Source: Cryptosporangium arvum DSM 44712
GTDB taxonomy: Bacteria; Actinomycetota; Actinomycetes; Mycobacteriales; Cryptosporangiaceae
Assembly (NCBI RefSeq): GCF_000585375.1
Contig: NZ_KK073874.1
Span: 2,790,001 to 2,854,000, forward strand
Reading direction: 5' to 3'
Length of the DNA: 64,000 nucleotides
Both the position numbers and the translations under genes were made by a program. The notes under the pieces are model-generated. The model was not told where the DNA came from. It made no database searches and saw nothing but the letters and a program-made list of their open reading frames with translations. Below, piece by piece: positions 8,662-30,821 of this stretch. The first letter of the stretch is position 1. Every line of letters starts with the position of its first letter.

Positions 8662-8817
8662 CCCCGTTTTCCGATCGTCGACGACGAGTCCCGCGCGATG
8701 TTAAAGACGCAGCGCAAGCACGACCGGGACGGACCGCGACGAGATCCCTAGTGGACGGGCGGTCCTCGGCCCTGGACAGAGCGGCGTGGCATGCGTCATA
8801 GTCGGTCGCGGCATACT

Positions 8818-8830
8818 GCATACAGTATGG
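8818..8830. promoter_or_regulatory. Palindromic operator CATACAGTATG before the first OFA transporter
   Basis: CATACAGTATG at 8819-8829 is a perfect 5-1-5 palindrome, and a further half-site (GCATACTG) directly precedes it at 8811-8818. It lies 16 bases upstream of the transporter ATG, just before an AGGAGGT ribosome binding site. The same palindrome recurs before the other units of the oxalate regulon; the GntR protein at 21331 is the likely binder. Confidence 0.7.
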
Positions 8831-8845
8831 CTAGGAGGTACCGCG

Positions 8846-10123
8846 ATGAGCTTCACTCTCGTTTCCGACTTCCACGGCCGGCAGTACCGGGTGGGGGAGA
8901 ACGCCACCGACCTGACCGGCCGGTCCCGGGCCTGGATGCTCCGCGCGTCGTTGGCCGCGATGGCCGCCGCCGGCCTGCTTCAGTACGGCCTGGCCGCGGC
9001 GCTGCCCGCGCTGGCCCGCGGCAACGGCTGGAGCAGCACCGACGTGCTGTGCGTCCTCGGGTTGTGGGTCGCGGGCCAGGCCGGGGTCGCGGCCCCGGCC
9101 ACCGCGCTCTACCGCCGGGCCGGGACGCGGCTGTTGTTCCCGGCCGCGGTGCTCTGTGCCGCCGGGCTCGCGACGCCGGCCCACACCGGCAGCCTCACGC
9201 TCGTGCTGCTGGGCTACTCGGTGCTCGGCGGACTGGGGGCCGGGCTGGTCTACGTGGTGTGCATCGGGGTGGCCACCGAGTGGTTCCCGGAGCGGATCGC
9301 GGGCGTCACCGGCGCGGTGAGCGGCGCGTTCGGTTACGGCGCGGTGCCGTTCGTCGCGGTCGTGTACGTCGTGGACGCGGGCCCGATCCTGTTCGACGTC
9401 GCCGCCGTGCTGGTGGCGGTCGTCGTCACCGGCGCCGCGCTGGTGGTGCGCCGCCCGCCGGAGCGCTGGTGGCCGGCCGGGATCGACCCCCGGCTCTGGG
9501 CGCTCGACCGCCGCCTGAACCGCAGCATCCCGGCCAACGCCCCGGCGATCCGGTCGTACCGCCCGGCGGACGCCTGGCGCAGCGGGATGTTGCCGCTGAT
9601 GTGGGCGCTCGTCGGCGTCATCGCCGCGATGGCGCTGTTCGACCTGGGCTACCTGGCCGTCTCCGGAAGTACCGCCGCGATCGGTGTGCTCGCGCTGGCC
9701 ACCGGGCTGGCCCGGGTGGTCACCGGGCGGCTCTCCGACCGGCTCGGGCGCCGCCGGATGCTGATGGCCGCGCTGCTGCTCGGCGGGCTGGCCCAGTTCG
9801 GGCTGCTCGCCGGGGGAGAGCCGGGGCCGGTCGCGCTGTCGGCTGCGGTCGCCGGTGTCGGGACGGGCGCGGGGTACTCGCTGCTCGTCGGCCTGGTGCG
9901 CGACTGGTTCGGCGACGAGGCGACGCTGGTCAACTACGGCCTCGTCTACACCGGCAAGGCGGTCGGCGGGGTGGTGGGCCTGCTGCTGGTGGCGGCCAGT
10001 TCACCGGCCCGCGGCGAAATCGTCGCGGTCGTGGTGGTCGGTGCGCTCGGCGTCCTCGGGGCGTGCGCGGCGGGCCTTCTCCGCCGGCCCGGCCGCCCGG
10101 CCCTGCGCCTCCCGGGACGCTGA
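8846..10123 (+). CDS. MFS transporter, oxalate/formate antiporter (OFA) family
   Basis: A 425-residue integral membrane protein with about 12 transmembrane segments. The MFS loop motif is GRLSDRLGRRRM, and a repeat of related character (VATEWFPERIAGVTG and VRDWFGDEATLVNYG) is typical of OFA-family carriers. The start at 8846 is set by the perfect AGGAGGT at 8833-8839. The N-terminus FHGRQYRVGENATDLTGRSR is closely like that of the second transporter at 13696, so the two are paralogues. It is transcribed alone behind its own regulon operator. The likely role is uptake of oxalate, perhaps in exchange for formate or another carboxylate; the substrate is inferred from context. Confidence 0.88.
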   Translation: MSFTLVSDFHGRQYRVGENATDLTGRSRAWMLRASLAAMAAAGLLQYGLAAALPALARGNGWSSTDVLCVLGLWVAGQAGVAAPATALYRRAGTRLLFPAAVLCAAGLATPAHTGSLTLVLLGYSVLGGLGAGLVYVVCIGVATEWFPERIAGVTGAVSGAFGYGAVPFVAVVYVVDAGPILFDVAAVLVAVVVTGAALVVRRPPERWWPAGIDPRLWALDRRLNRSIPANAPAIRSYRPADAWRSGMLPLMWALVGVIAAMALFDLGYLAVSGSTAAIGVLALATGLARVVTGRLSDRLGRRRMLMAALLLGGLAQFGLLAGGEPGPVALSAAVAGVGTGAGYSLLVGLVRDWFGDEATLVNYGLVYTGKAVGGVVGLLLVAASSPARGEIVAVVVVGALGVLGACAAGLLRRPGRPALRLPGR

Positions 10124-10197
10124 CCCCACCGGCGTCCGACCAGCCACTTCGGATCGATTCCCGCAATCGGTGGACACCGCAGTGTGAACTGCGCCAC

Positions 10198-10230
10198 CAT
10201 ACTGATCACGTCATACGGTATGCAATATGC
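10198..10230. promoter_or_regulatory. Palindromic operator cluster before frc
   Basis: CATACGGTATG at 10212-10222 is a perfect 5-1-5 palindrome. A half-site CATACTG lies upstream at 10198-10204 and an ATATGC follows at 10225-10230. The cluster ends 28 bases before the frc start codon. The arrangement palindrome plus CAATATGC is repeated, in degenerate form, before hyi at 30009-30027. Confidence 0.7.
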
Positions 10231-10258
10231 AAGCGCCCGACGACGCAGGAGGACGACG

Positions 10259-11485
10259 ATGGGTAAGGCACTCGACGGAATCCGAATCCTCGACATGACG
10301 CACGTCCAATCCGGACCCTCCGCCACCCAGTTGCTCGCCTGGCTGGGAGCCGACGTCATCAAGCTCGAAGCCCCGGGCCGGGGCGACATCACCCGCGGCC
10401 AGCTCCGCGACCTGCCCGACGTCGACAGCCTGTATTTCACGATGCTGAACTGCAACAAGCGCAGCATCACGGTGAACATGAAGTCCGACGACGGCAAGGA
10501 GATCTTCACGAAGCTCGTCGGCGAAGCCGACGTGCTGGTGGAGAACTTCGGACCGGGCGTCGTCGACCGCTTCGGGTTCTCCTGGGAGCGGCTGCAGGAG
10601 CTCAACCCCGGGCTGATCTACGCCTCGATCAAGGGCTTCGGCCCCGGGCGCTACGCCGGGTTCAAGGCCTACGAGGTCGTGGCCCAGGCGATGGGCGGCT
10701 CGATGAGCACCACCGGCTACGAGGACGGCCCGCCGACCGCGACCGGCGCCCAGATCGGCGACTCCGGCACCGGCGTGCACCTGGTCGCCGGCATCCTCGC
10801 CGCGCTCTACCAGCGCACGAGCACCGGTCGCGGCCAGCGCGTTCAGGTGGCGATGCAGGACGCCGTGCTCAACCTGTGCCGGGTCAAGCTGCGCGACCAG
10901 CAGCGGCTGGCTCACGGTCCGCTCGGCGAGTACCCCAACGACAACTTCGGAGACGAGGTGCCGCGCTCGGGCAACGCGTCCGGCGGCGGCCAGCCCGGCT
11001 GGGCGGTGAAGTGCGCTCCCGGCGGGCCCAACGACTACATCTACGTGATCGTCCAGCCCACCGGGTGGGCACCGATCGCGAAGCTCATCGGCCGGCCCGA
11101 ACTCGCCGACGACCCGGCCTGGAACACCCCGAAGGCGCGGCTGAACAAGCTCGACAAGATGTTCGCGCTGATCGAGGAGTGGACCGAGAAGCACACCAAG
11201 TGGGCCGTGATGGAGGACCTGAACGCCCACGACATCCCCTGCGGCCCGATCCTGTCCACCCGTGAGCTGATCGAGGACGACACGCTCGCGCAGCTCGGCT
11301 CGGTCGTCGAGGTCGACCACCCGGAGCGCGGCGCGTTCAAGACCGTCGGCATGCCGATCAAGCTGTCCGATTCCCCCGTCGAGGTCGAGCGGTCACCGCT
11401 GCTCGGCGAGCACACCGACCAGGTTCTGGCCGAGCTCGGTCTGGCCGACCGCGCCGACGCGTACCGCGCCGCCGGCGCGATCTGA
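10259..11485 (+). CDS. frc: Formyl-CoA:oxalate CoA-transferase
   Basis: A 408-residue class III (CaiB/BaiF) CoA-transferase that moves CoA from formyl-CoA to oxalate, giving oxalyl-CoA and formate. Similarity to the Oxalobacter formigenes enzyme is strong: [41 protein letters not shown] and [11 protein letters not shown]. The catalytic aspartate is D168 in QIGDSGTG. The glycine loop, GGGGQ in Oxalobacter, reads SGGGQ here. The start at 10259 follows AGGAGGA at 10247-10253. It heads an operon that continues with an acyl-CoA synthetase, a second transporter, a ketopantoate-reductase-like protein and formate dehydrogenase. This gene is the firmest evidence that the regulon handles oxalate. Confidence 0.95.
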
Positions 11486-11496
11486 GGAGAGTTCCG

Positions 11497-13620
11497 ATGG
11501 CTTACGACACCGACGCTGTCCGGCGCGTTCTCGACGCCGCGAAAGGTCGGGACTCGCTGACCGCCCCCGAAGGCCGGGCCGTCGTCGAGGCCTACGGCAT
11601 CCGCACCCCCGGCGAGGGCCTCGCCACCAACCCCGAGGACGCGGTCGCGGTCGCCACTGCGATCGGCTTCCCCGTCGTGCTGAAGATCGTCTCCCCGGAC
11701 ATCCTCCACAAGACCGAAGCCGGGGGAGTGATCGTCGGGGTCGCCGACGGCGCGGCGGCCGCGGACGCCTACCGCACGATCGTGCGCAACGCCCGCGAGT
11801 ACGACGCCGACGCCCGGATCGTCGGCGTCCAGGTGCAGGAGCAGCTCACCAGCGGTCACGAGGTGATCGTCGGCGCGGTCACCGACCCGACGTTCGGCAA
11901 GATCGTCGCGTTCGGACTCGGCGGCGTGCTGGTCGAGGTGCTCAAGGACGTGACGTTCCGGCTGGCGCCGACGTCGCTGGAGACCGCCCGTTCGATGGTC
12001 GACGGCATCAAGGCGGCCGAGATCCTGCGCGGGGTGCGCGGGGCCGAGCCGGCCGACCCCGAGGCGCTCGCGGACCTCATCACGAAGGTGTCCGACCTGG
12101 TCACCGACTTCCCGGAGATCGCCGAGGTCGACCTCAACCCGGTGCTGGCCACCAGCACCGGCGCCACCGCCGTGGACGTCCGGATCCTGGTCGACCCGGC
12201 GGCGGCGAAGACTCCGGTGCGCTTCGGGCGCGACGAGATCCTCGCGTCGATGAACCGGATCATGCGCCCGGCCGCCGTCGCGGTCATCGGGGCGTCCGGC
12301 GAGGACGGCAAGATCGGCAACTCGGTGATGAAGAACCTGGTCAACGGCGGATATCGGGGTCGGATCCACCCGGTGAACCCGAAGGCGGCCGACATCCTCG
12401 GGTTGCCCGCCGTGAAGAGCATCACCGACGTCCCGGGCGACGTCGACGTGGCGATCTTCGCGATCCCGGCGAAGTTCGTGCCGCAGGCTCTGGAGGAGGC
12501 CGGGGCCAAGGGGGTCGCCGGGGCGATCCTGATCCCGTCGGGCTTCGGCGAGACCGGCAACCACGATCTCCAGGACGAGGTCGTCGAGATCGCCCGCAAG
12601 CACGGGGTACGCATCCTCGGGCCGAACATCTACGGCTACTACTACACCCCCGAGCACCTCTCGGCGACGTTCTGCACCCCCTACGACGTGCCGGGCGGCG
12701 TCGCGCTCTCCTCGCAGAGCGGCGGCATCGGGATGGCGATCCTCGGCTTCAGCCGCTCGGCCCAGATGGGCGTTTCGGCGATCGTCGGGGTCGGCAACAA
12801 GGCCGACATCGACGAGGACGACCTGCTGACGTTCTTCGAGGACGACCCCCACACGCACCTGATCGCCATGCACCTGGAGGACCTCAAGGACGGGCGGGCG
12901 TTCGCCGAGACCGCGCAGCGTGTGTCGAAGCGCAAGCCGGTGATCGTGCTGAAGGCCGGCCGCACCTCGGCGGGGGCGCGGGCGGCCGGTTCGCACACCG
13001 GCGCGCTGGCCGGTGACGACGCGGTCTACGACGACATCCTGCGCGAGAGCGGCGTGGTCCGGGCACCTGGGCTCAACGACATGCTCGAGTACGCCCGGGG
13101 CGTACCGCTGCTACCCACGCCGCAGGGCGAGAACGTCGTGATCATCACCGGGGCCGGCGGCTCCGGGGTGCTGCTCTCCGACGCCTGCGTCGACAACGGG
13201 TTGTCGCTGATGCACATCCCGGGCGACCTGGACGAGGCGTTCCGCGCGTTCATCCCGCCGTTCGGCGCGGCCGGCAACCCGGTCGACATCACCGGCGGCG
13301 AACCACCGTCCACGTACCGGAACACGGTCGCGCTGGGCCTCTCCGACCCCCGGATCCACTCCCTGATCCTGGGTTACTGGCACACGATCGTGACGCCGCC
13401 GATGACGTTCGCCGAGCTCGTCGTCGACGTCGTCGAGGAGTTCCGGGCCCGGGGGATCCACAAGCCGGTCGTGGCCTCGCTCTCCGGTGACGTCGAGGTC
13501 GAGGAAGCGAGCGAGTTCCTCTACCGCCACGGGATCGTGGCCTACCCCTACACGACCGAGAAGCCGGTGGCTGTCCTCGGCGCCAAGTACCGATGGGCCC
13601 GCGCCGCGGGCCTGCTCTGA
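11497..13620 (+). CDS. ADP-forming acyl-CoA synthetase, fused subunits (candidate oxalate-CoA ligase)
   Basis: A 707-residue NDP-forming acyl-CoA synthetase (acid + ATP + CoA to acyl-CoA + ADP + Pi). The ATP-grasp (beta-type) domain comes first (about 1-235), followed by the CoA-binding and ligase (alpha-type) domains (about 245-707), the reverse of the more common alpha-beta order. The phosphohistidine is H500 in SHTGALAG. In the CoA-ligase domain GPNIYGYYYTP replaces the usual GPNC-type motif. It begins 11 bases after frc and precedes the second transporter. A role in charging oxalate (or formate/acetate) with CoA, priming or replacing Frc, is inferred from position only. Confidence 0.85.
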   Translation: MAYDTDAVRRVLDAAKGRDSLTAPEGRAVVEAYGIRTPGEGLATNPEDAVAVATAIGFPVVLKIVSPDILHKTEAGGVIVGVADGAAAADAYRTIVRNAREYDADARIVGVQVQEQLTSGHEVIVGAVTDPTFGKIVAFGLGGVLVEVLKDVTFRLAPTSLETARSMVDGIKAAEILRGVRGAEPADPEALADLITKVSDLVTDFPEIAEVDLNPVLATSTGATAVDVRILVDPAAAKTPVRFGRDEILASMNRIMRPAAVAVIGASGEDGKIGNSVMKNLVNGGYRGRIHPVNPKAADILGLPAVKSITDVPGDVDVAIFAIPAKFVPQALEEAGAKGVAGAILIPSGFGETGNHDLQDEVVEIARKHGVRILGPNIYGYYYTPEHLSATFCTPYDVPGGVALSSQSGGIGMAILGFSRSAQMGVSAIVGVGNKADIDEDDLLTFFEDDPHTHLIAMHLEDLKDGRAFAETAQRVSKRKPVIVLKAGRTSAGARAAGSHTGALAGDDAVYDDILRESGVVRAPGLNDMLEYARGVPLLPTPQGENVVIITGAGGSGVLLSDACVDNGLSLMHIPGDLDEAFRAFIPPFGAAGNPVDITGGEPPSTYRNTVALGLSDPRIHSLILGYWHTIVTPPMTFAELVVDVVEEFRARGIHKPVVASLSGDVEVEEASEFLYRHGIVAYPYTTEKPVAVLGAKYRWARAAGLL

Positions 13621-13695: not shown

Positions 13696-15087
13696 GTGAG
13701 TACTTCCGAAATGTCCAAGCCCGACGGACAGACTGATGGGTATCGAGAAGTAAAGGACGTGAACGGCCGCGTCTACCGGGTCGGGGAGACCGATCAGCAG
13801 ATCCTGGGTCGCTCCCGTCGGTGGATGGTCATCCTGCCCTGGTTCGCCATGATGGCGATCAGCTCGTCGGAGTACGCGTTCACCTCCGCCGAGGAGACGC
13901 TGTCCAGTGCGCACAACTGGCACGGCTCGCACATCTTCTGGTTGCTCGGCGTCTGGGTCTTCTTCCAGGCGGCGGTCGCGTTCCCGGTCGGCAAGCTCCG
14001 GGAGAGCGGCCGCCTCCCGGTGAAGGCCGCGATGATGCTGGGTGCGATCGGGACCGTGCTGGGCTATGTGGCGCTCGCTTACGCACCGAACGTGTTCTGG
14101 GCCTACCTGGGCTTCGGGTTCTTCGGCGGCACCGGCGCGGGCATCGTCTACGCGACCTGCGTCAACATCGTCGGGAAGTGGTACCCGGAGCGGAAGGGCG
14201 GCAAGACCGGCTTCGTCAACGGCGGCTTCGCCTACGGATCGGTGCCGTTCATCTTCCTGTTCAAGTCGTACATGGACACCAGCAACTACAGCGGCCTGCT
14301 GCTCGTCGTCGGTCTGTTCCTGGCGTTCGCGGTCGCGGCCAGCGGCTTCTTCATGGCCGACCCGCCGAAGAACTGGTGGCCGCCGCACGTCGACCCGCTG
14401 CGTGCCTCGGCCGATGACCCGCGGATCCGCCGGTCGCTGGAGATGAACCCGCCCGCGGTGAAGCAGTACACGCCGATGGAGGCCGTCCGGACCGGCATCC
14501 TGCCGCTGATGTGGTTCTGTCTGCTCTGCACGGCAGGTATCAACATCTTCGGCATCGCGTTCCAGGTGCCGTTCGGCGACGAGATGGGCTTCGCCGGCGG
14601 GATCGTGGCGCTGGCGATGAGCCTGAAGGCGATCGTCAACGGCACCGGCCGGGGCGTCATCGGCTGGATCTCCGACCGGTACGGCCGGCGCCGGACGCTG
14701 ATCTTCGTCTGCTTCGTGCTCGGGCTCTCGCAGTACGCGGTGTACTTCTCCGGCTCGATCGGGAGCCTCCCGCTCTTCCTGCTCGCCTCGATGGTGTCCG
14801 GCTTCGGTGGTGGTGCGATCTTCCCGCTGTTCGCGGCGATGACCGCGGACTACTTCGGGGAGAACAACAACGCCTCCAACTACGGCCTGGTCTACAGCTC
14901 GAAGCTCGTGTCCGGCCTGGTCGGATCCGGTCTCGGCGCGGTGGTCGTCGCGACCTGGGGCTACGGCGGCGCGTTCATCCTGGCCGGCTCGATCGGCCTT
15001 GGCGCCGGCTGCCTGGCGTTCTTCCTCAAGCAGCCCGGACGCAACCTGCGCGACCTGCGTCAGGAATCAGTTGCCCTGTCTGCCTGA
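13696..15087 (+). CDS. MFS transporter, oxalate/formate antiporter (OFA) family, second copy
   Basis: A 463-residue 12-helix MFS carrier. WISDRYGRRRTLIF is the MFS cytoplasmic loop motif, and the N-terminus VNGRVYRVGETDQQILGRSR is shared with the transporter at 8846. The C-half AMTADYFGENNNASNYGLVY is characteristic of OFA-family proteins. The GTG start at 13696 follows TGGAGGT. It is third in the frc operon, so oxalate or formate is the expected substrate. Two paralogues in one regulon could split uptake and antiport, or serve different C1/C2 acids. A strong hairpin follows immediately (15094-15133). Confidence 0.88.
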   Translation: MSTSEMSKPDGQTDGYREVKDVNGRVYRVGETDQQILGRSRRWMVILPWFAMMAISSSEYAFTSAEETLSSAHNWHGSHIFWLLGVWVFFQAAVAFPVGKLRESGRLPVKAAMMLGAIGTVLGYVALAYAPNVFWAYLGFGFFGGTGAGIVYATCVNIVGKWYPERKGGKTGFVNGGFAYGSVPFIFLFKSYMDTSNYSGLLLVVGLFLAFAVAASGFFMADPPKNWWPPHVDPLRASADDPRIRRSLEMNPPAVKQYTPMEAVRTGILPLMWFCLLCTAGINIFGIAFQVPFGDEMGFAGGIVALAMSLKAIVNGTGRGVIGWISDRYGRRRTLIFVCFVLGLSQYAVYFSGSIGSLPLFLLASMVSGFGGGAIFPLFAAMTADYFGENNNASNYGLVYSSKLVSGLVGSGLGAVVVATWGYGGAFILAGSIGLGAGCLAFFLKQPGRNLRDLRQESVALSA

Positions 15088-15153: not shown

Positions 15154-16143
15154 ATGAGGATCGCCGTGCTCGGCGCCGGTGCGATCGGTGCGTACGTGGG
15201 CGCCGCCCTGCATCGCGGGGGCGCCGAGGTGCACCTGATCGCCCGCGGACCCCACCTGGCCGCCCTGCGGGAACACGGGGTGCGCGTGTTCAGCCCCCGG
15301 GGCAACTTCACCGCCGCCGCCTCCGCCACCGACGACCCCCGCGAGGTCGGCCCGGTCGACTACGTCTTCCTGGGTCTGAAGGCCCACCAGTACGCCGGGT
15401 GCGGATCGCTGATCTCCCCGCTGCTCGGTCCGGACACCGCGGTGATCGCGGCCCAGAACGGCATCCCCTGGTGGTACTTCCACGGGTTGACCGGGCCGCT
15501 GCGCGATCGCCGGATCGAAGCCGTCGACCCGGGCGGCACGGTCTCCGAGGTCCTCCCGGTCCGCCGCGCGATCGGCTGCGTCGTCTACTGCTCGACCGAG
15601 ATCGAGTCGCCGGGCGTCATCCGGCACCTCGAGGGGACGCGGTTCTCGATCGGTGAGCCGTCGGGCGAGGTCTCCGACCGGTGCCGCGCGTTCAGTGACG
15701 CGATGGTGGCCGGGGGTCTCAAGTGTCCGGTCGAGTCGAATCTGCGTGACGACATTTGGGTCAAGCTGATGGGTAACGTCGCATTCAACCCGCTGTCTGC
15801 CCTGACCAGGGCTACCATGATCGAGATGTGCGGGCACCCTGGTGTCCGTGGCCTGATCGCCGAGATGATGCGGGAGACGGTCGCGATCGCGGGCGCGACC
15901 GGGTGCCATCCGTCGATCTCGATCGACCGCCGGATCGCCGGTGCCGCCCGCGTCGGCCACCACAAGACGTCCACTCTCCAGGATCTGGAAGCGGGCAAGG
16001 AACTCGAGCTCGAGGCGATCATCGGCGCGGTCGTGGAGATCGCGACGCTGACCGGGGTTCCCGCGCCCACCCTGCGCAACGTCTACGCCGCGGTCGATCT
16101 GCTGGCGCGCACCGTGACCGGGCCTCGCGTCCCGGTCGCGTGA
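15154..16143 (+). CDS. Ketopantoate reductase (PanE/ApbA) family protein, probable oxalyl-CoA reductase
   Basis: A 329-residue member of the 2-dehydropantoate 2-reductase family. The Rossmann motif GAGAIGAYVG is at the N-terminus; GLKAHQ carries the usual catalytic lysine, with DDIWVKLMGNVAFNP and HHKTSTLQDLEAGKELELEA following. The start at 15154 follows GAGGAG. Pantothenate genes are absent; instead it lies between an OFA transporter and formate dehydrogenase in the frc operon. In Methylobacterium extorquens the paralogue PanE2 is the NADPH-dependent oxalyl-CoA reductase that makes glyoxylate, and glyoxylate-using enzymes (gcl, hyi, glxR) are in this regulon. That role is inferred here; a housekeeping panE is the alternative. 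Confidence 0.85.
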   Translation: MRIAVLGAGAIGAYVGAALHRGGAEVHLIARGPHLAALREHGVRVFSPRGNFTAAASATDDPREVGPVDYVFLGLKAHQYAGCGSLISPLLGPDTAVIAAQNGIPWWYFHGLTGPLRDRRIEAVDPGGTVSEVLPVRRAIGCVVYCSTEIESPGVIRHLEGTRFSIGEPSGEVSDRCRAFSDAMVAGGLKCPVESNLRDDIWVKLMGNVAFNPLSALTRATMIEMCGHPGVRGLIAEMMRETVAIAGATGCHPSISIDRRIAGAARVGHHKTSTLQDLEAGKELELEAIIGAVVEIATLTGVPAPTLRNVYAAVDLLARTVTGPRVPVA

Positions 16144-21020: not shown

Positions 21021-21223
21021 TGTCGGCGGTGGTGCCGGAGCGGCGGTTGATCGACGACATCGCACGGCAGTTCGGGCACCTGCCGCCGGACGCCGCGGCG
21101 GACGCGATCGCCGATCACGTCCGCCGGTTCTGGGATCCGCGGATGCGGGCGCGGCTGCTGACGCTGGCCGACGACGAGGGCCTCGACCCGCTCCCGGCCG
21201 CCGCGGCGGCCCGCCTGCGCTGA
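21020..21223 (+). CDS. fdsD: Formate dehydrogenase delta subunit
   Basis: A 67-residue protein starting at an ATG that overlaps the fdsA stop by one base (TGATG). LIDDIARQFGHLPPDAAADA and HVRRFWDPRMRARLL match the FdsD family: small, acidic-to-neutral, with the conserved FWDPRM box. FdsD is needed for assembly or stability of the FdsGBA complex. It completes the fdsGBAD operon and is followed after nine bases by a perfect hairpin. Confidence 0.9.
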   Translation: MSAVVPERRLIDDIARQFGHLPPDAAADAIADHVRRFWDPRMRARLLTLADDEGLDPLPAAAAARLR

Positions 21224-21267: not shown

Positions 21268-21294
21268 GCATGCGGTATCCCACCGACTGTATGC
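21268..21294. promoter_or_regulatory. Degenerate regulon operator before gntR
   Basis: GCATGCGGTATCC (21268-21280) is a two-mismatch version of the CATACNGTATG palindrome, and a half-site ACTGTATGC follows at 21286-21294; the outer arms GCATGCGGT and ACTGTATGC are themselves near-complementary. It lies 37-63 bases before the gntR start, consistent with weaker autoregulation. Confidence 0.55.
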
Positions 21295-21330
21295 TAGAAA
21301 CCGAGGACTCACTTCACCGCCGGAGGATCG

Positions 21331-22071: not shown

Positions 22072-25026
22072 CTACCGATCAAGCCATCCCTGAAGGCGAT
22101 CAACCAATGTCGTCCGCGGAGTCGTCGCCGGTCGGACCTGTGTGGCGGCGGTCCGCCGCCTGGCCTCCAGCCATTCCCGCAGTCTCGGCTCGTGTGGAAT
22201 GGTGGCCGCGCTTGATGCGCGCAGAACGGGAGCGGGTGCGCCGAGCGAGGCGAGAAGTTGCTCGGCGCGTCGCAAGTTCCACCGATGGGAGAACGGCGGG
22301 CCGTCGCCCCATGCCTGCCGATAGCCCTGGAGGGCGTGCTGCCTCGCCTCCTCGTCCCGACCGAGCAACGAAAGCGTTCGGGCCACGAGCTGATGCGGCC
22401 GATCGTAAGGATGCAGGCGCGGTAGTCGGGCGAGACTCTGGCCGAGTGTGGCTTCCGCGTCGCGGGTTCGTCCCAGGGCGGCGAGGGCCCACGCGCTCTC
22501 CGCCGAGATCGCCGTCTGTCCCCCGACCCGGCGCAGACGGTCGACGTCCTCGGCCGCCTTCAAGGCGGCGTCGAGGTCGCCGTGGCGCATGGACACGTCG
22601 AAACTCAGGAGACGAAGCCTGAGCTTCATTCGCCAGTCCGATGCCGACTGCTCCGCATCGACGAGCCGATCACCTACTTCTGGATTTCCGGCCCAGTTCT
22701 CCAAGGCCAACGTCCAGTACTGGACATCGTCGGCGAGCCAGGGGTAGCGCTCCGCGGCCGAGCGCTCGTTGATCCGGGTGAGTGCCGAGCGAGCCGCTTC
22801 GACTTCTCCCGTCGTGGCGGCGAGAATGGCCCGCCGAAGGAGTAGATCGGCGAGATCCTGGACGTCGGCACCAGCGGTGGTCTGGCTCATGAAATCGAGG
22901 GCTTTGGAGTAGAGCGCGAAGCCACCCGTCGAGCGGTAGTGCGTAGAGAGCCGACCCAGCGAGAGCCTGATCTCCGGCAGTTCGGGCCGAGGCTGGTTGA
23001 GCAGGTATGCGAGAAGCCCGGCCTCGACGGCCACACCCCGGTCGTGTTCCGCAGCGAGATGGAGGGCGATCGACAGATCCGCTCGAAGGATGACGATCGT
23101 GCTGTTCTCATAGGGCTGGAGGAGTTCCGTGACCGTGGCGTTGGCGCCGAGTCTCACCAACAGCGGTTTGGCAAGTTGCCCGTTCCATAGGGACACGACG
23201 CGTCCGTGATTGCCGGACCCGGTGAGAGCGCGGAACAGCGTGATGGTCGGTTGGAGGTCTTCGACGCTCGTGACCTCGTTGGGTGTTTCCGGCGGAAGCG
23301 CCGCGAAGTGATCGCGGATCTGCTCGTTGGCGGTGACCCGCTCGGTGGCGTTCAGCCGGTCGTACGAAAATGCCCGGACAACCGGATGCATGTCGTACGT
23401 ATTGGCTTGGCGGTCCCACCAGAGCAGTCCGCGAGCCTCAAGATCGCGGAGTGCCGCGTCGAGCGCCGCACCTGCCTCCGCGGTCGAGAGGTCGGAGTCG
23501 TAACCGAAGGGATTGACGTCCTGCACCAATCGCCATCCCACCGAGCCGGACAGGGCCGAAAGCCAGCTCAGCAGCCGGGCTGTCTGGGGGTCGAGATTCT
23601 GAAAGGCGGCGTCGAGAATGTGCCGCTGTTTGGCGGCCAGGTCGACCGCACCGATGGAGAACGGCTGATGTTCACGCCAACTGTCGAAGTCTCCCGGCGC
23701 CAACCGGTGGTCGCGCACCAGCCCGGCGACGATAGCGATGAGCAGCGGGTGATTGTCGAGCGGACGGAAGAAGCTCTCGATGTTTCGTGCGCCTCCCGAA
23801 ACGCCGAGCTTGGTCAGCAGCGAGCGCACCGCGCTGTCATCGATTCCGGGAAGCCGGTACCGATACACGCCCGGCAGCAGACTTCGTCCTGGACCCTCCA
23901 GGGCGTCCGGTGCCATGCGCGTCGTGACGATGACTTTGGAGGGTGAGGTTCCCACGAGCGCCCGCACGAAGTCGTACCCGACTCCATCGATCATCGAATG
24001 CTTGTCCGCCCGCGCGTCCGCTTCCACGATCGTGTCGGTCACTTTCGACGGATCGTACTGGTGATACGCCATGAGCAGACGCTCAAAACCGTCCAGTGCG
24101 AGGAGGATCGGACGCCGGCGGAGCTCGGTGAGAACGAGTTCGGGAAGCTCCTCGCGCGGGATGCGACTGACCTGCCACGCGGTGGATGCGGTCAGGTACC
24201 CCAGCAGTTGCTGGAGAAAGCGATTGATCGATGCCGACCCGTCGTAGAAGCTCCACCAGAAACGGCCGGCTAGACGAGGGATCGCCGCCTCGGCGTGATT
24301 ATCGAACCATTCCCAGGTCAGTGCGCTCTTACCGGTACCACCGATCGCCTCGACGACGGCCACCGGGGCCGCGGACGAGGCCCATCGGGTGAGCAGCCGC
24401 AGCTCTTTCCGGCGGCCGGTGAACGGCGATCCGCCGACGTAGGCGGGGATGGCGTACGGCTGCGGAGCTGAGGGAAGCGTGCGCCGGTTGGCGTGCCAGG
24501 AGGCCTGGGTTACGGCCTGGGCGTGAGTCAGGCGTCGATCGGGATCGGGTGGCCGGTTGAACTCGAGTGCTCGGTACAGGTCGTTCCGGAACGTCTCGAT
24601 CTCGTTGAAGAACTTGACCGTGTGATGTGCTCGTACTTTCTCGACGAACTTTGCCAGATCCCCGAGCTCCCGATACTCCGCATACGTATGGGTGCGAACG
24701 TGAGCAGCCAGGTACCGGTCGTCGGCAATGAACGGAACGATCGGCGTGCCATGTTTGGCCGTGGCCCACTGATACTCGAGCTCGGTGTACGAGAGGTCTT
24801 CCCCGGGTGGACGATCGCCGTAGCGATCGGCGATGAGTAACACAAAGATGTCGCTTTTGCTGACTTCTCGGCGACACACCTCAAGTGGGGGAGCGGTCTC
24901 CGGGTAGAAGTTCTCCATCGCCACTGGTTCCATGCCCAGGCGGTAGCACAGTTCGATGGCGATCTGCCGGTACGGACGCAAGGTGCCGCTCGCGCTGGAG
25001 ATGAAGACCCGAGTCACAGGCGGCAT
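22072..25026 (-). CDS. DUF4062 / STAND-type NTPase with helical-repeat C-terminus (candidate defence protein)
   Basis: A 984-residue protein. Residues 1-160 are a DUF4062 domain (VFISSASGTLRPYR at 7-20, ADRYG at 66-70, YTELEYQWA at 80-88), a fold related to TIR domains. An NTPase of the NB-ARC/NACHT (STAND) kind follows: Walker A IGGTGKSA near 228-235 and Walker B LLALDGFERLL near 308-318. A winged-helix-like part precedes a long helical, TPR-like C-terminus (about 600-940). This effector-switch-sensor layout is typical of bacterial innate-immunity NTPases. The gene is visibly lower in G+C than its neighbours, points against the flanking metabolic genes, and ends 15 bases from gntR, suggesting acquisition. 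No partner gene is evident. Confidence 0.8.
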   Translation of the reverse strand: MPPVTRVFISSASGTLRPYRQIAIELCYRLGMEPVAMENFYPETAPPLEVCRREVSKSDIFVLLIADRYGDRPPGEDLSYTELEYQWATAKHGTPIVPFIADDRYLAAHVRTHTYAEYRELGDLAKFVEKVRAHHTVKFFNEIETFRNDLYRALEFNRPPDPDRRLTHAQAVTQASWHANRRTLPSAPQPYAIPAYVGGSPFTGRRKELRLLTRWASSAAPVAVVEAIGGTGKSALTWEWFDNHAEAAIPRLAGRFWWSFYDGSASINRFLQQLLGYLTASTAWQVSRIPREELPELVLTELRRRPILLALDGFERLLMAYHQYDPSKVTDTIVEADARADKHSMIDGVGYDFVRALVGTSPSKVIVTTRMAPDALEGPGRSLLPGVYRYRLPGIDDSAVRSLLTKLGVSGGARNIESFFRPLDNHPLLIAIVAGLVRDHRLAPGDFDSWREHQPFSIGAVDLAAKQRHILDAAFQNLDPQTARLLSWLSALSGSVGWRLVQDVNPFGYDSDLSTAEAGAALDAALRDLEARGLLWWDRQANTYDMHPVVRAFSYDRLNATERVTANEQIRDHFAALPPETPNEVTSVEDLQPTITLFRALTGSGNHGRVVSLWNGQLAKPLLVRLGANATVTELLQPYENSTIVILRADLSIALHLAAEHDRGVAVEAGLLAYLLNQPRPELPEIRLSLGRLSTHYRSTGGFALYSKALDFMSQTTAGADVQDLADLLLRRAILAATTGEVEAARSALTRINERSAAERYPWLADDVQYWTLALENWAGNPEVGDRLVDAEQSASDWRMKLRLRLLSFDVSMRHGDLDAALKAAEDVDRLRRVGGQTAISAESAWALAALGRTRDAEATLGQSLARLPRLHPYDRPHQLVARTLSLLGRDEEARQHALQGYRQAWGDGPPFSHRWNLRRAEQLLASLGAPAPVLRASSAATIPHEPRLREWLEARRRTAATQVRPATTPRTTLVDRLQGWLDR

Positions 25027-25088
25027 GGTAGTCGGCGCTTCGCCGATTCCACGGCCCCCTTGCCGCGGTCAGCGTAGAGGCGAGAGTG

Positions 25089-25328
25089 TCATGCGATTCC
25101 CCACGTCGTGCCGCGTTCCGCCGTGGAACTGACTAGTTGAACGTTTTCCGCTTGAGGTCCTTTAGGTCCCTGTGTAACCAGAAATTCGACACGTTGTCCG
25201 TCTTCCAGCGCCTTATAGCCGTCCATGAGTATCGCCGAATAATGCACGAAGACGTCTGCGCCGCCATCTATCGCTATGAATCCATAGCCCTTTTCGGCGT
25301 TGAACCATTTCACGGTGCCTTGTGCCAT
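25089..25328 (-). CDS. Cold-shock protein (CspA family)
   Basis: A 79-residue single OB-fold nucleic-acid chaperone. [18 protein letters not shown] holds RNP1 (KGYGFI) and DVFVHYSAI holds RNP2; the family end [11 protein letters not shown] is intact, followed by a 15-residue tail. The start is ATG 25328, preceded by GGAGG; a longer frame reaching upstream overlaps the divergent csp promoter and has no family similarity. It faces away from the second csp gene with 115 bases between starts. Confidence 0.92.
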
Positions 25329-25443
25329 CGAATCCTCCGCGTCCTCTTCCGGCCTATGGGCGCCTCCAAGGATGCTAGTGGATCTGGTGTGCAATGCTGT
25401 CTCCATGGTGAGGCCCATAGCGGAGCGGGCCGGGGGAGGGACG

Positions 25444-25644
25444 ATGGAAACGGGTGTGGTGAAGTGGTTCAACAACGAGAAGGGCTTCGGGTTCATCGCT
25501 CCGGATGACGGGGGGCCGGATGTCTTTGCCCACTATTCGGCAATTCAGGTTCAGGGTTACAAAGAGCTGGCGGACGGTCAGTTAGTTCAATTTGACATCA
25601 CCCAGGGACAAAGGGACCCCAGGCGGCGAATATTCGGCCGTTGA
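25444..25644 (+). CDS. Cold-shock protein, C-terminus frameshifted
   Basis: The first 53 or so residues are a good CspA-type sequence ([20 protein letters not shown], with RNP2 DVFAHYSAI). After FDITQGQ the frame goes wrong: it reads [10 protein letters not shown] and stops at 25644. Adding one A in the AAA at 25610-25612 would restore [10 protein letters not shown], the normal family ending, with a stop at 25677-25679. So a single-base deletion has removed the last beta-strand. Either a real mutation producing a damaged 66-residue protein or a sequencing error in a short homopolymer. Confidence 0.75.
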
Positions 25645-25730: not shown

Positions 25731-27500
25731 CTACTTGTACATCGTCTGGTTCATCGTTCCCGGCGCGTAGGCGTCGGGGTCGACCCACACGTTGATCAGG
25801 GACGGCAGGCCCGATTCGCGGGCCCGCCGGAGCGCGGGCCCGATGTCCGCGGGGTCGCGGACCTCCTCGCCGTAGCCGCCGAGCATCCGGGCGAACTCGT
25901 CGTAGCGCACGTCGCCGAGCGTGTTCCCCACCCGCTGGCGGGCCTCGCCGTACTTGCGCATCTGCCCGTACCGGATCTGGTTCATCGACGAGTTGTTGCC
26001 GACCACGCCGACGAACGGCAGGTCGAACCGGACCAGCGTCTCGAAGTCCCAGCCGGTCAGCGAGAACGCGCCGTCCCCGAAGAGCGCCACGACCTCCTTG
26101 TCGGGCCGGGCGTACTTCGCCGCCAGCACGAACGGCACACCGACGCCGAGCGTGCCGAGCGGCCCCGGGTCCATCCAGTGCCCGGGGGTCTTCGGCTGCA
26201 CCACGCCGCCGGAGAACGTCACGATGTCGCCGCCGTCACCGATGTAGATCGAGTCCTCGGTGAGGAACTCGTTGATCTCGTGCGCGAGGCGCAGCGGATG
26301 GATCGGGGAGGCGTCGGAGAGCTGCCGGGGCAGCCGCTTCTGGTAGGCCGCCGACTCCTCGGCCCGCAGCTCCTCGAACCACGCCCGCCGGTTCGGTTTC
26401 GCCAGCCGCCCCGACGACGCCGCGGTCACCGCGGCCAGCACCGCCCCGGGGTCGCCGACGATGCCCAGGTCGATGTCCCGGTTCTTGCCGACCGTGCGGT
26501 AGTCCATGTCGATCTGCACGACCGTGGCTCCCGCGGGCAGCCGCCGCCCGTAGCCCATCCGGAAGTCGAACGGCGTGCCGACGATGATGATGACGTCGGC
26601 GTTGTTGAACGCGTACCGGCGCGAGAGGTGGAAGTGGTGCGGGTCGCCGGGCGGCAGCGAGCCGCGGGCCGAGCCGTTCATGAACACGGGGATGTCCAGC
26701 GTCCGCGCGAAGTCGATCGCCGCGTCGGTGCCGCGCCCGGTCCAGACCTGGGATCCCAGCAGGACGGCCGGCTTCGACGAGTGCGCCAGGACGTCGGCCA
26801 GCCGCTCCACCGCCGCCGGGTCGCCTGCGCTCTTCGTCGACACCCGGTAGCGTCCCGGCTCCGGGATCGTGCAGTCCTTCAGGTCGACCTCGGCGTCCAG
26901 CACGTCGCGCGGGATCTCCAGGAACGACGGCCCGGGCGCGCCGGCGTAGCACTCGCGGAACGCCATCGAGACCATGTCGGCGCTGCGCGTGGTGTGCGGC
27001 ACGGTCGCGGCGAACTTCGTGATCGGCGTCATCATGTCGACGTGCGGCAGGTCCTGCAGTGAGCCCATCTTGTGCTGGCTCAGCGCGCCCTGGCCGCCGA
27101 TGAGAAGCATCGGGCTCTCGGCGCGGAACGCGTTCGCGACGCCGGTGACCGCGTCGGTGGTGCCGGGCCCGGCGGTGACGACCGCGACGCCGGGCTTGCC
27201 GGTGACCCGGGCGTACCCGTCGGCCGCGTGTGCGGCGACCTGCTCGTGCCGGACGTCGACCACCGCGATGCCCTCGTCGACACAACCGTCGTAGATGTCG
27301 ATGATGTGCCCGCCGCAGAGGGTGAAGATCACGTCGACGCCTTCGGCTTTGAGCGCCTTCGCGACCAGGTGACCACCGGAGATCCGGTCCGGGTCACCGC
27401 TGCGCGCCCGCAGGATCGCCGCGGTGGCGCCCGACTCGCCGTCCGTTTCCGGAGAGGACCCAGCCGCTGCCGCGGGGGGTTCCGTCGTGGTCTGACTCAT
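25731..27500 (-). CDS. ThDP-dependent oxalyl-CoA decarboxylase / 2-hydroxyacyl-CoA lyase family enzyme
   Basis: A 589-residue thiamine-diphosphate enzyme with the three-domain acetolactate-synthase fold. The cofactor-activating glutamate is E86 (RHEQ) and the ThDP motif runs from GDG at 475 to NN at 502-503. It is divergent from the SucCD-like genes behind a perfect regulon operator, which suggests oxalyl-CoA decarboxylation to formyl-CoA. However, it lacks the ARLNW and GDSAF signatures of classical Oxc (it has [11 protein letters not shown] at 309-318 and GDGAF) and resembles the ILVBL/HACL2-like branch. It may be a non-orthologous decarboxylase or a 2-hydroxyacyl-CoA lyase. The N-terminal 35 residues are a disordered extension. 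Confidence 0.8.
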
Positions 27501-27540
27501 GATTCCTCAACTCCTCGATCGTTGCCGCGGATTGAAGACT

Positions 27541-27553
27541 GCATACCGTATGC
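27541..27553. promoter_or_regulatory. Perfect regulon operator before the ThDP enzyme gene
   Basis: GCATACCGTATGC is a perfect 13-base palindrome 41 bases upstream of the ThDP enzyme start (27500, minus strand). It is the most symmetrical copy of the CATACNGTATG motif in the window and shares the divergent promoter region with the copy at 27616-27628. Confidence 0.75.
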
Positions 27554-27615: not shown

Positions 27616-27628
27616 GCATACAGTATGG
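27616..27628. promoter_or_regulatory. Regulon operator before sucCD-like genes
   Basis: CATACAGTATG at 27617-27627 is identical to the core found before the first transporter (8819-8829). It lies 39 bases upstream of the sucC-like ATG. Confidence 0.72.
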
Positions 27629-27666
27629 CATCACGGTTACGCTGGGGTTCCCTCAACCGGAGGACG

Positions 27667-28824
27667 ATGGCTGTGGACCTGTACGAGTACCAGGCACGCG
27701 ATCTGTTCGAGGCCCACGAAGTCCCGGTGCTACCGGGAGTCGTGGTCACCACCCCGGAGGCCGCGCGGGCGGCCGCGGCCGAGCTCGGGTGTTCGGTCGT
27801 CATCAAGGCCCAGGTCAAGACCGGTGGGCGCGGCAAGGCCGGCGGGGTGAAGCTCGCCGCCGACGCCGACGAGGCCCGGGCGAAGGCAGACGACATCCTC
27901 GGCATGGACATCAAAGGTCACCGGGTGAACCGCGTCCTGGTCACGACCGCGACCGACATCGCCGACGAGTACTACTTCTCCTACCTCCTCGACCGTACGA
28001 ACCGGACGTTCCTCGCGATGGCGTCGCTGGAGGGCGGGGTCGAGATCGAGGAGACCGCGGCCACCAACCCCGAGGCACTGGTCCGGGTGCCGATCGATCC
28101 GCTGACCGGCGTCGACTCCGCCAAGGCGCGGGAGATCGTCGCGGCGGTCGGGCTGCCGGAGCAGGCGGCCGAGGCCGTCGAGAGCCTCTGGTCGGCGTTC
28201 GTCGCCGAGGACGCGCTGCTGGTGGAGGTCAACCCGCTGGTGCGTGACGCCGGCGGGGCGATCGTCGCGCTCGACGGCAAGGTGACGCTCGACGACAACG
28301 CCGGGATCCGGCACGTCGCCCACGCCGGGCTGCGCGACCACGACTCGGCCGACCCGCTCGAGGCCCGGGCCCACGCGAAGGACCTGAACTACGTGCGGCT
28401 CGACGGCCGGGTCGGCGTGATCGGCAACGGTGCCGGCCTGGTCATGTCCACGCTCGACGTCGTCGCGCTGGCCGGGGCCCGGCCGGCGAACTTCCTCGAC
28501 ATCGGCGGCGGTGCCTCGGCCGAGGTGATGGCGAACGGACTGGAGATCGTGCTGGCCGACCCGGCCGTGCGCAGCGTCCTGGTGAACGTCTTCGGTGGCA
28601 TCACCGCGTGCGACGCGGTCGCCGACGGCATCGTGCGAGCGTTCGCGCTGCTGGCCAGCCGGGGTGAGCCGGTGGACCGGCCGGTCGTCGTCCGGCTCGA
28701 CGGCAACCGCGCGGACGAGGGCAGGCGCATCCTCGGCGCCGCCGGGCTCCCCGGCCTCGAACTCGTGGACACGATGGACGGCGCGGCCGCCCGGGCCGCC
28801 GAACTCGCAGGCCGGGAGGCATGA
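27667..28824 (+). CDS. SucC-like ADP-forming CoA ligase, beta subunit
   Basis: A 385-residue ATP-grasp beta subunit of the succinyl-CoA synthetase type. [20 protein letters not shown] starts it, [20 protein letters not shown] is the ATP-grasp glycine-rich loop, and VEVNPL and [16 protein letters not shown] are conserved. The ATG at 27667 follows GGAGG; an in-frame ATG at 27625 lies inside the operator and is unlikely. Housekeeping SucCD is normally elsewhere, so this regulated copy may act on another acid, such as malate (MtkAB type), oxalate or glycerate, or may recycle succinyl-CoA when succinate accepts CoA. The substrate is not decidable here. Confidence 0.88.
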
Positions 28825-28825
28825 G

Positions 28826-29704
28826 ATGGCGATCTTTCTGACCGAGAAGAGCCGGGTGCTCGTCCAGGGCATGACCGGCGCCGAGGGCATGAAGCACACC
28901 CGTCGGATGCTCACCGCCGGCACCACCGTCGTCGGTGGCGTCAACCCGCGAAAAGCCGGAACCACGGCGGATTTCGACGGGATGAGGCTGCCGGTCTTCG
29001 CCGGGGTGGCCGAGGCGATGGGTGAGACCGGTGCGGACACCACGGTGATCTTCGTGCCGCCCGCGTTCACGCTGGCCGCGGGACTGGAGGCGATAAGCGC
29101 CGGGATCGGCCTCGCGGTCGTGATCACCGAGGGCGTGCCGGTGCACGACACTGCGGCGCTGTGGGCGCACGCGGTGGCGGCGGGCAACACCACACGCATC
29201 ATCGGCCCGAACTGTCCCGGGCTGATCAGCCCGGGGAAGTCCAACGCGGGGATCATCCCGGCCGACATCACCGGCCCGGGGCGGGTGGGGCTGGTGTCGA
29301 AGTCCGGCACGCTCACCTACCAGCTCATGTACGAGCTGCATGACCTCGGGTTCTCCACGTGCGTCGGGATCGGCGGCGACCCGATCGTCGGGACGACCCA
29401 CGTCGACTGTCTGCAGGCCTTCCAGGACGACCCGGAGACCGACGCGATCGTGATGATCGGCGAGATCGGCGGCGACGCCGAGGAGCGGGCCGCCGACTAC
29501 GTCGCCGCCCACGTGACGAAGCCGGTCGTCGGGTACGTGGCGGGTTTCACCGCGCCCGAGGGCAAGACGATGGGGCACGCCGGCGCGATCGTCAGCGGAT
29601 CGTCGGGCACGGCCGAGGCGAAACAGAAGGCGCTGGAAGCCGCCGGGGTCCGAGTTGGACGAACTCCTACGGAGACGGCGAAATTGCTTCGAGCGTTGCT
29701 ATAA
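28826..29704 (+). CDS. SucD-like ADP-forming CoA ligase, alpha subunit
   Basis: A 292-residue alpha subunit that binds CoA and carries the phosphohistidine. [14 protein letters not shown] is the CoA-binding loop, [13 protein letters not shown] the phosphate-binding segment, and the active histidine is in [10 protein letters not shown]. It begins two bases after the sucC-like stop, so the subunits are co-translated. It has the normal SucD length. With the beta subunit it forms a nucleotide-dependent CoA ligase under control of the oxalate-regulon operator; the in vivo acid substrate is unknown. Confidence 0.88.
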
Positions 29705-29746
29705 CGTTCGTTTCCGGCGATCTCTCGACGGCGAGGGGAGCGTGCG

Positions 29747-29971
29747 GTGCGGTGGAATCTGCGGTGGGTAGCCGCGAACGCTGACATCTGGCGTCCGGCG
29801 GATCTGCTGCAGGCGTGCCGCGCCGCCGGGTACTCGCCGTCGCTGAGCAAGGTCGCTTCCTGGTGGAACGGGACGCCGAGCACGGTGCGACTCGACGAGC
29901 TCGACATGATCTGTACGGCGCTGAACTGCAAGATCGCTGATCTTCTCGAGGCCGAGCCGCCGTCGTCGTGA
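29747..29971 (+). CDS. Small Cro/CI-type (XRE, HTH_26) DNA-binding protein
   Basis: A 74-residue protein made of little more than one helix-turn-helix: RWNLRWVAANADIWRPADLL, then SKVASWWNGTPSTVRLDELD and MICTALNCKIADLL. This is the compact XRE type often found next to mobile or accessory genes in actinobacteria. The GTG at 29747 follows GAGGGGAG. It lies between the SucD-like gene and hyi on the same strand, 42 bases after sucD. It may be a local regulator; its target is unknown. Confidence 0.78.
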   Translation: MRWNLRWVAANADIWRPADLLQACRAAGYSPSLSKVASWWNGTPSTVRLDELDMICTALNCKIADLLEAEPPSS

Positions 29972-30007
29972 CGGAGATGGAGAACGGCTTTTTTCTGTCC
30001 GCCGACT

Positions 30008-30020
30008 GCATACAGGATTC
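30008..30020. promoter_or_regulatory. Degenerate regulon operator overlapping the hyi ribosome binding site
   Basis: CATACAGGATT at 30009-30019 keeps the left arm of CATACNGTATG and part of the right arm, and is followed by CAATATGC exactly as at the frc operator (10212-10230). Its AGGA (30014-30017) is also the only Shine-Dalgarno-like sequence, six bases before the hyi ATG. Confidence 0.5.
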
Positions 30021-30023
30021 AAT

Positions 30024-30821
30024 ATGCGATACGACGTCAACCTGTCCCTTCTCTTCACCGAGTTACCGCTGCTGGAACGGCCGGCGGCCGCGCGCGACGC
30101 CGGGTTCGACGCGGTCGAGTTCTGGTGGCCGTTCCCGGACGCGGTGCCGTCCGACGCCGAGGTCGATCGGTTCGTCGCCGCCGTGCGCGACGCCGGTGTC
30201 CGGCTCGTCGGGCTGAACTTCTTCGCCGGCGACATGCCCGGCGGCGACCGGGGCGTGCTCTCCTGGCCCGGCCGCACCGGCGAGTTCCTCGACAGCGTGA
30301 ACGTCGCCGTCGGGATCGGCGCGCAGCTCGGCTGCCGGGCGTTCAACGCGCTCTACGGCAACCGCCTCGGCGGGGTCGACCCGGGCGAGCAGGACGACGT
30401 CGCGGTGGAGGCGCTGGTGCTCGCCGCGCACGCGGTCTCCCGGATCGACGGCACCGTCCTGATCGAACCGCTGTCCGGGACACCTCGGTACCCGCTGCGG
30501 ACGGCGGCCGACGCGCTCGCGGTGATCGACCGGCTGCCCGGACGGGCCAACCTCCGCCTGCTCGCCGACCTGTACCACCTCGCGGTCAACGGCGACGACC
30601 TCGACGCGGTGATCGAACGGCACACCGCACGCATCGGCCACGTCCAGATCGCCGACGCGCCCGGCCGCCACCAGCCCGGCACCGGTTCGCTGCCGCTCGC
30701 ACGCCACCTGGAGCAGCTCACCGCCCACGGCTACGACGGCTGGGTGGGCCTCGAGTACATCCCGGAGGGCCCGAGCGCCGACAGCTTCGCCTGGCTCCCG
30801 CGGGCGGGGGTGGCGTCGTGA
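30024..30821 (+). CDS. hyi: Hydroxypyruvate isomerase
   Basis: A 265-residue TIM-barrel enzyme of the AP-endonuclease-2/Hyi family that interconverts hydroxypyruvate and tartronate semialdehyde. DAVEFWWPFPDAVPSD, VGLNFFAGDMPGGDRG and NALYGNR match Hyi; the two metal-binding/catalytic glutamates are in VLIEPLSG and GLEYIPEGP. The ATG at 30024 directly follows the degenerate operator, leaving almost no leader. Its stop overlaps the glxR GTG by four bases. It opens the hyi-glxR-gcl operon that converts glyoxylate to glycerate. Confidence 0.9.
   Translation: MRYDVNLSLLFTELPLLERPAAARDAGFDAVEFWWPFPDAVPSDAEVDRFVAAVRDAGVRLVGLNFFAGDMPGGDRGVLSWPGRTGEFLDSVNVAVGIGAQLGCRAFNALYGNRLGGVDPGEQDDVAVEALVLAAHAVSRIDGTVLIEPLSGTPRYPLRTAADALAVIDRLPGRANLRLLADLYHLAVNGDDLDAVIERHTARIGHVQIADAPGRHQPGTGSLPLARHLEQLTAHGYDGWVGLEYIPEGPSADSFAWLPRAGVAS

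Follow-up and report, generated by a model that had tools for sequence, protein, structure and literature searches.

An inverted repeat is the probable operator of an FCD-type GntR regulator in the oxalate gene cluster of Cryptosporangium arvum

Genes for the use of oxalate lie together in Cryptosporangium arvum DSM 44712, and the question raised by this locus is which regulator controls them through the short palindrome CATAC-N-GTATG that recurs between them. We analysed a stretch of 64,000 nucleotides (contig NZ_KK073874.1, positions 2,790,001 to 2,854,000), hereafter the window, for which a preliminary description had proposed that the palindrome marks six promoters of one regulon, with exact copies at four of them and degenerate copies at the other two. 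Our results make it highly probable that this palindrome serves as operator for the FCD-type GntR protein (gene at 21331-22056), which would act as an autoregulated repressor of the oxalate regulon; the binding, the effector and the sign of control are predicted here from sequence. The regulator and the six putative operators, in which ThDP stands for thiamine diphosphate and HTH for helix-turn-helix, are the following:

8812-8829, + strand: operator of the OFA transporter gene; outer half-site CATAC at 8812-8816, core at 8819-8829
10212-10229, - strand: operator of the frc operon; core at 10212-10222, outer half-site at 10225-10229
21276-21295, + strand: gntR operator variant TATCC-N8-GTATGCT, consisting of outer-left and inner-right half-sites
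21331-22056, + strand: GntR regulator; PF00392 74.5 bits and PF07729 87.3 bits, over the cut-offs (GntR HTH and FCD domains)
27535-27552, + strand: operator of the ThDP enzyme gene; core at 27542-27552, conserved in G012, G026, L093 and L094
27610-27627, + strand: sucCD operator; core at 27617-27627, conserved in G012, G026 and L093
30009-30026, - strand: hyi-glxR-gcl operator with a degenerate core, overlapping the hyi start codon at 30024; 24.1 bits by a matrix of sites from other genera

The four exact copies were confirmed at 8819-8829, 10212-10222, 27542-27552 and 27617-27627, and their mean number in 100 dinucleotide shuffles of the window was 0.00. The entire genome, a single contig of 9,195,993 bases, has four copies of the exact 11-mer, all within this stretch of 19 kb, and none of its reversed control. 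When the 30 letter orders of CATAC were used as the half of a 5-1-5 palindrome, the window held CATAC alone (4 times), and in the loci of relatives CATAC halves numbered 36 against 6 for the remaining 29 orders summed. The shuffles, the reversed control, the four copies against none with permuted halves and the retention of the sites across genera refute chance for the exact copies, and the probability that the palindromes are accidental or compositional is very small. What can be said for such an origin is that sites with up to two mismatches stand at background genome-wide; for this reason a grading of the degenerate copies by mismatch count was rejected. The window holds no one-mismatch copy beyond the four exact ones. 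With up to two mismatches it yields 11 matches including these four (shuffle mean 4.73), among them the previously listed degenerate copies at 21269, 21283 and 30009, a match at 8812 that overlaps an exact site, and matches at 7472, 33128 and 37083 that are probably due to chance.

The palindrome is tied to the gntR gene across genomes. In a survey of 298 genomes of the order (Mycobacteriales), the GntR protein found matches in 28 genomes at E ≤ 1e-40, and the exact palindrome was present in 52. Orthologues were defined by at least 55% identity, a line that was set after both tables were known (the next identity down is 44%). The palindrome occurs in 17 of 17 orthologue genomes, the window's included, and in 35 of the 281 others; none of the 11 genomes whose best GntR match is at 39-44% identity has it. 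Exact copies number 42 against 8 of the reversed control in the orthologue genomes, and 41 against 72, which is no excess, in the other 281. Most of the 42 (32) lie within the stretches taken around gntR, and the single exact site of G250 lies outside its stretch. Scanning named genomes brought in five more orthologues at 67-81% identity, of which Actinoplanes supplied two and Virgisporangium, Micromonospora and Mycobacterium one each; three further matches of that scan, at 30-37% identity, were not used. The genome-wide uniqueness of the sites and their co-occurrence with the orthologue support the earlier suggestion that the GntR protein is the likely binder.

In relatives the sites also precede regulon genes. 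Reference proteins were mapped on the 17 gntR loci, on five named loci and on further contigs, together with sites having at most one mismatch; the position counts refer to the 17 loci, the named five and L132. Thirty-six of 41 exact sites (32 of 37 without the window's own) lie at most 350 bp upstream of a regulon gene, as do 58 of the 70 sites with at most one mismatch. Two of the five exact sites left over (G222 10666 and G214 31106) stand 50-75 bp before formate dehydrogenase homologues and had been missed by the start filter, a third, in A. italicus, stands 34 bp before a canonical oxalyl-coenzyme A (CoA) decarboxylase gene, and the last two (G078 18689 and, in Micromonospora, L095 6148) have no regulon gene assigned. 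With at most one mismatch, and with a divergent site counted for both genes, the marked genes are sucC (20), the ThDP enzyme or oxalyl-CoA decarboxylase gene (19), the panE-like gene (15), gntR (9), the first OFA gene (8), frc (6), the second OFA gene (4) and hyi (2); G033 is 74% complete with genes in pieces, and its panE-like gene is counted twice among the 15.

Away from the gntR loci the 11-mer is another matter, and a reading of all such copies as regulon members was rejected. The loci were inspected in 33 of the 35 genomes that have the site and no orthologue (G010 and G183 were left out), and among them a regulon gene, panE-like, adjoins the site in G099 alone, and a different GntR gene in G066. 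Six off-locus stretches with one exact site each (L133-L138) contain no regulon gene, and neither of the two 11-mers of G036, a member of the window's genus without an orthologue, stands beside one. In G036 and G012 (L066 1501 and L067 1501), both of the window's genus, the exact palindrome has a common right flank and lies 19 bp before similar frames of 355-360 aa, with no regulon gene there.

A matrix was built from 46 sites, all from outside the window's genus. Its best distinct sites in the window were the four exact ones and, in fifth place, that at hyi (centre 30014); the frc-operon site ranked first in both window and genome. No position of a 3 Mb Markov sequence reached 16 bits. When the 46 sites were run over the whole genome as a calibrated sequence model, with 150 of the 196 first-look candidates scored, five matches were returned at E ≤ 10, namely each of the four exact sites, one of which was also matched in reverse; the exact sites have in this way passed the genome-wide matrix scan that had been proposed as a check. 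Genome-wide, both the exact sites and the matrix matches are restricted to functionally linked genes, as in a regulon of a single regulator.

The two degenerate copies look real by the evidence of the matrix and of relatives; as 11-mers with mismatches alone they are not special. The copy at gntR, described before as a poor palindrome, is better understood as a spaced variant, conserved at most orthologues, in which the outer-left and inner-right half-sites are kept and the inner-left one is lost. Its form, YATHY-N8-GTATSC, is found in 14 of 23 gntR upstreams, and the right half in 18 of 23; once the final T is added, the pattern matches twice genome-wide, at 21276-21295 of the window and at 309935-309954. 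The gntR copy is thus widely conserved, and the hyi copy is kept in near relatives only: by eye, it is present in four hyi upstreams out of 13, one being that of the window, and takes the form CATACTGCATACAGAATG in G026, CATACTGCATACAGGATA in L093 and an exact site in L094. In two genomes, G004 and G033, hyi stands immediately behind sucD.

Several findings weigh against assigning all six sites to the GntR protein. The Fisher P of about 1e-14 for the co-occurrence is overstated, as related genomes are not independent, and if all 28 genomes matched at E ≤ 1e-40 are counted, the palindrome is found in 17 of 28 against 35 of 270. The co-occurrence would also be compatible with a different regulator that accompanies the cluster throughout. 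The Mycobacterium locus L097 yields just one site, with one mismatch. For the degenerate copies, sites with up to two mismatches number 358 in the genome against 397 for the reversed control; the outside matrix gives the gntR site (centre 21288) 13.1 bits, barely above the window noise (11.7 bits at 52457, the best non-regulon position), and the whole-genome model search, within the E value and candidates given above, returned neither the gntR nor the hyi site. The pattern YATHY-N8-GTATSC matches 31 times in all when 824 kb are scanned on both strands, and of its 14 full matches at gntR, that of G250 falls on a different site. Five of the 23 gntR upstreams fit neither the full pattern nor its right half; in four of them a further-diverged form is visible by eye. 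Nine of the 13 hyi upstreams listed show no such site by eye. Near the frc operon and in the ThDP/sucC region no promoter-like pair was found. Finally, G066, which has no orthologue, carries an exact palindrome (L144 5060) about 50 bp before the gene of a different GntR protein (30% identity), perhaps a paralogous regulator sharing the core. Because this site precedes a different GntR gene, the core may not be private to the GntR protein of the window, and for the same reason our confidence in that protein is slightly lowered and that in a different binder raised.

Such a binder could be the small Cro/C1-type HTH protein encoded at 29747 or a protein from elsewhere in the genome, with GntR merely travelling along. 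The HTH gene lies inside the cluster and is present in G012 and G026, and the core is not unique to this GntR protein, as it forms the centre of a longer palindrome beside TetR-type frames and stands before the different GntR gene of G066. Against this, of the mapped loci only those of the window, G012 and G026 gave a match to the HTH gene (E ≤ 1e-10 with a short query), whereas the site is present in all 17 orthologue genomes; the variant site at gntR itself is typical of autoregulation; and the TetR-linked palindrome accounts for none of this genome's four exact 11-mers. We therefore consider a different binder very unlikely.

The longer palindrome, around ACCGTACCATACNGTATGGTACGGT, was seen at nine loci, three of them in orthologue genomes (1501-1511 in each of L065, L076, L077, L078 and L082; L135 5216, L137 5049, L138 5597 and L145 5879; the flanks of L082 differ). 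It looks like the operator of another regulator with the same 11-base core. The adjoining reading frames are presumably TetR-type, a label given by eye from a sequence motif.

The protein itself has the features of an FCD-type regulator, with an N-terminal GntR winged helix and a C-terminal FCD domain whose ligand-binding part is all-helical and has conserved histidines. H150, H192, H214 and N146 are invariant in 14 orthologues, and are the putative metal ligands of the FCD domain. The AlphaFold model has a mean predicted local distance difference test score of 86.8 (14 sequences), with the helices of the ligand domain at 90-231. The recognition helix reads SRQPVREAL; SRQP is invariant in the 14 aligned orthologues, and relatives of about 40% identity show SRGP or SRNP in the seven readable rows of 12. 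A fold search with the model gave as nearest structures a Brucella GntR protein, PmiR (7xp1) and the VanR-type Atu1419 (6za3). The latter two share the HTH and the all-helical ligand-domain fold; with 24-29% identity over the aligned part they are likened by fold. Atu1419 was solved, according to the title of its structure, with palindromic DNA.

The nearest mechanistic parallel is NanR of Escherichia coli, an FCD-type GntR repressor of a scavenging pathway (PMC8012715). The likeness lies in an operator of several close half-sites with similar letters (GGTATA in NanR, GTATG here) situated downstream of the polymerase site. On the other hand, NanR binds GGTATA repeats with three dimers, has an N-terminal extension of 32 residues and responds to sialic acid, whereas the core here is no GGTATA repeat and consists of the inverted repeat CATAC-N-GTATG with weaker outer half-sites. 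The NCBIfam NanR model is the second-best match of the window's GntR protein, at 99.5 bits against a cut-off of 260.

The 5-1-5 palindrome described earlier is confirmed as the core of what seems to be a longer operator. Over different promoters, conservation extends to positions -11 to -6 (A, G/T, A, T/C, T, G) and, more weakly, to +8 to +10 (G, T, A). The left element, CAKAY-TG, repeats the CATAC half-site seven bases out, and the right one, GTA, is GTATG-like at the same distance and the weaker of the two. Five of the window's own sites, that at gntR being set aside, show the left outer element clearly but not the right one; the half-site at 8812 is a perfect CATAC. The TTG conserved to the left of the core was rejected as a candidate -35 element, since it points toward the gene in 14 and away from it in 20 of the 34 sites that have genes on one side. 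A promoter-like pair (TGGACA at 8773 and CATAGT ending at 8802) precedes the OFA operator, which occupies the positions 10-27 bp downstream of it.

We propose that a GntR dimer binds the core, aided by the weaker outer half-sites 7 bp out. Repression is the most likely effect, because of the analogy with NanR and the position of the OFA operator just downstream of a promoter-like -10 element, and a metabolite of the pathway (oxalate, oxalyl-CoA or glyoxylate) would release it. FCD regulators include both activators and repressors, and the distances from the sites to the estimated gene starts vary from 1 to 247 bp, as might be seen if the protein activated, or played both roles depending on site position. 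The OFA operator downstream of the sole promoter-like pair found and the hyi operator that overlaps the start codon both fit blocking, and activation appears rather unlikely.

Under repression by GntR, six units would be controlled: the OFA transporter gene, the long frc operon, gntR itself, the ThDP enzyme gene, sucCD and hyi-glxR-gcl. The genes of the cluster, with NDP for nucleoside diphosphate, are these:

8846-10123, + strand: OFA-type MFS transporter, 425 aa; TIGR00890 104.8 bits, below cut-off; MFS_1
10259-11485, + strand: frc, formyl-CoA transferase; TIGR03253 660 bits, over the cut-off of 504
11497-13620, + strand: NDP-forming acyl-CoA synthetase, ATP-grasp part first; named by domains, no NCBIfam model over cut-off
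13696-15087, + strand: second OFA-type MFS transporter; TIGR00890 189.7 bits, below cut-off
15154-16143, + strand: panE-like reductase; NF005089 (2-dehydropantoate 2-reductase) 449 bits, cut-off 223
16172-21223, + strand: NAD-dependent formate dehydrogenase gamma, beta, alpha and delta; alpha TIGR01591 904 bits, cut-off 666; gamma and beta below cut-off, delta without a match and named by position
22072-25644, no strand assigned: insert of a DUF4062 protein gene and two cold-shock (csp) genes, outside the regulon
25731-27500, - strand: ThDP enzyme of a non-canonical family; TIGR03254 219.8 bits, cut-off 739.4
27667-29704, + strand: sucC and sucD, succinate-CoA ligase type; NF001913 495 bits and NF004230 427 bits, both over cut-off
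29747-29971, + strand: small Cro/C1-type HTH protein, 74 aa; PF13443 51.4 bits; found in G012 and G026
30024-33381, + strand: hyi, glxR and gcl, glyoxylate to glycerate; gcl NF008431 906 bits, cut-off 791; hyi and glxR below cut-off

The support found for the six marked units extends to the earlier outline of a regulon at 8811-33381, in which the single operon from frc to gntR, and hence the exact boundary, are inferred from gene spacing. The exclusion of the insert (called NTPase/csp before) is also supported: it contains no exact or one-mismatch site, and near relatives (four were examined, namely G012, G026, L093 and L094) have neither the DUF4062 gene nor the csp pair between gntR and the ThDP gene.

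The long frc operon would supply a CoA transferase, an acyl-CoA synthetase, a second OFA transporter, a panE-like reductase and formate dehydrogenase. As to the predicted flux, oxalate would be taken up and converted to oxalyl-CoA and then formyl-CoA, with the formate oxidised for energy; in an alternative branch, oxalyl-CoA would be reduced to glyoxylate and assimilated as glycerate. The acyl-CoA synthetase, which adjoins frc in most mapped loci, might serve to activate oxalate or to regain ATP from a CoA ester; it could convert formyl-CoA to formate and ATP, or prime oxalyl-CoA. Together with sucCD it probably primes or recovers CoA esters. The panE-like protein is a possible oxalyl-CoA reductase, because PanE2 has been used in that role, with glyoxylate as product (PMC12686821). 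The same set of enzymes (CoA transferase, oxalyl-CoA decarboxylation, reduction to glyoxylate, glyoxylate carboligase) serves oxalate assimilation via oxalyl-CoA reductase (PMC12927642 and PMC12686821). The cluster differs in that its ThDP enzyme falls outside the canonical oxalyl-CoA decarboxylase family. The original panE2 work was reportedly done in Methylorubrum, and we know of no operator or GntR regulator for this route.

The ThDP enzyme stays far below the cut-off of the canonical model TIGR03254, and likewise scores 506 against 587 with PRK05858 and 364 against 600 with NF058623; it is below the cut-off of every NCBIfam model among the 25 listed of 51 matched. It is nearer to the acetolactate synthase and 2-hydroxyacyl-CoA lyase models, and its best-matching solved structures are named 2-hydroxyacyl-CoA lyase. 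At 78% identity or above, this enzyme is present in the locus in 18 genomes, the window's included (one of them, G033, is the 74% complete genome), and 17 of the 18 have no canonical enzyme over the cut-off, G281 having one. G078 has a partial match of 59% and a canonical enzyme as well. In L095, L096 and L097 the gntR locus contains the canonical enzyme (968-983 bits), which directly follows a palindrome-type site in L095 and L096, and in L097 follows an OFA gene with a one-mismatch site. The simplest reading is that the ThDP enzyme replaces the canonical oxalyl-CoA decarboxylase in function, a prediction from gene content.

A bolder and tentative proposal, which we think somewhat more apt to fail than to hold, joins two ideas. 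The operator would be a grid of half-sites 7 bp apart (CAKAY-TG-CATAC-N-GTATG-NN-GTAGG) to which overlapping GntR dimers bind cooperatively, the gntR promoter having a version with a skipped position, and the ThDP enzyme would represent an unrecognised second family of oxalyl-CoA decarboxylases that replaces the canonical one in most of these actinobacteria.

Systems of this kind, in which a local FCD/GntR regulator governs an autoregulated catabolic regulon, are well known, and this particular regulon was not found in the literature searched. No report of a GntR regulator of oxalate genes was found there, which is weak evidence of absence, since subscription journals lay mostly outside the coverage. 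The analysis connects an uncharacterised regulator with a defined putative operator and, across nine genera of the order, with genes for oxalate use, and the operator offers a sequence handle for locating oxalate genes in actinobacteria. The oxalate-carbonate carbon cycle is fed by bacterial oxalate use (PMC12927642). The guess that the ThDP enzyme converts oxalyl-CoA to formyl-CoA becomes directly testable.

The Virgisporangium locus L094 has two GntR paralogues, at 10001-10654 (75% identity) and 18295-18930 (63%), both situated in the oxalate cluster.

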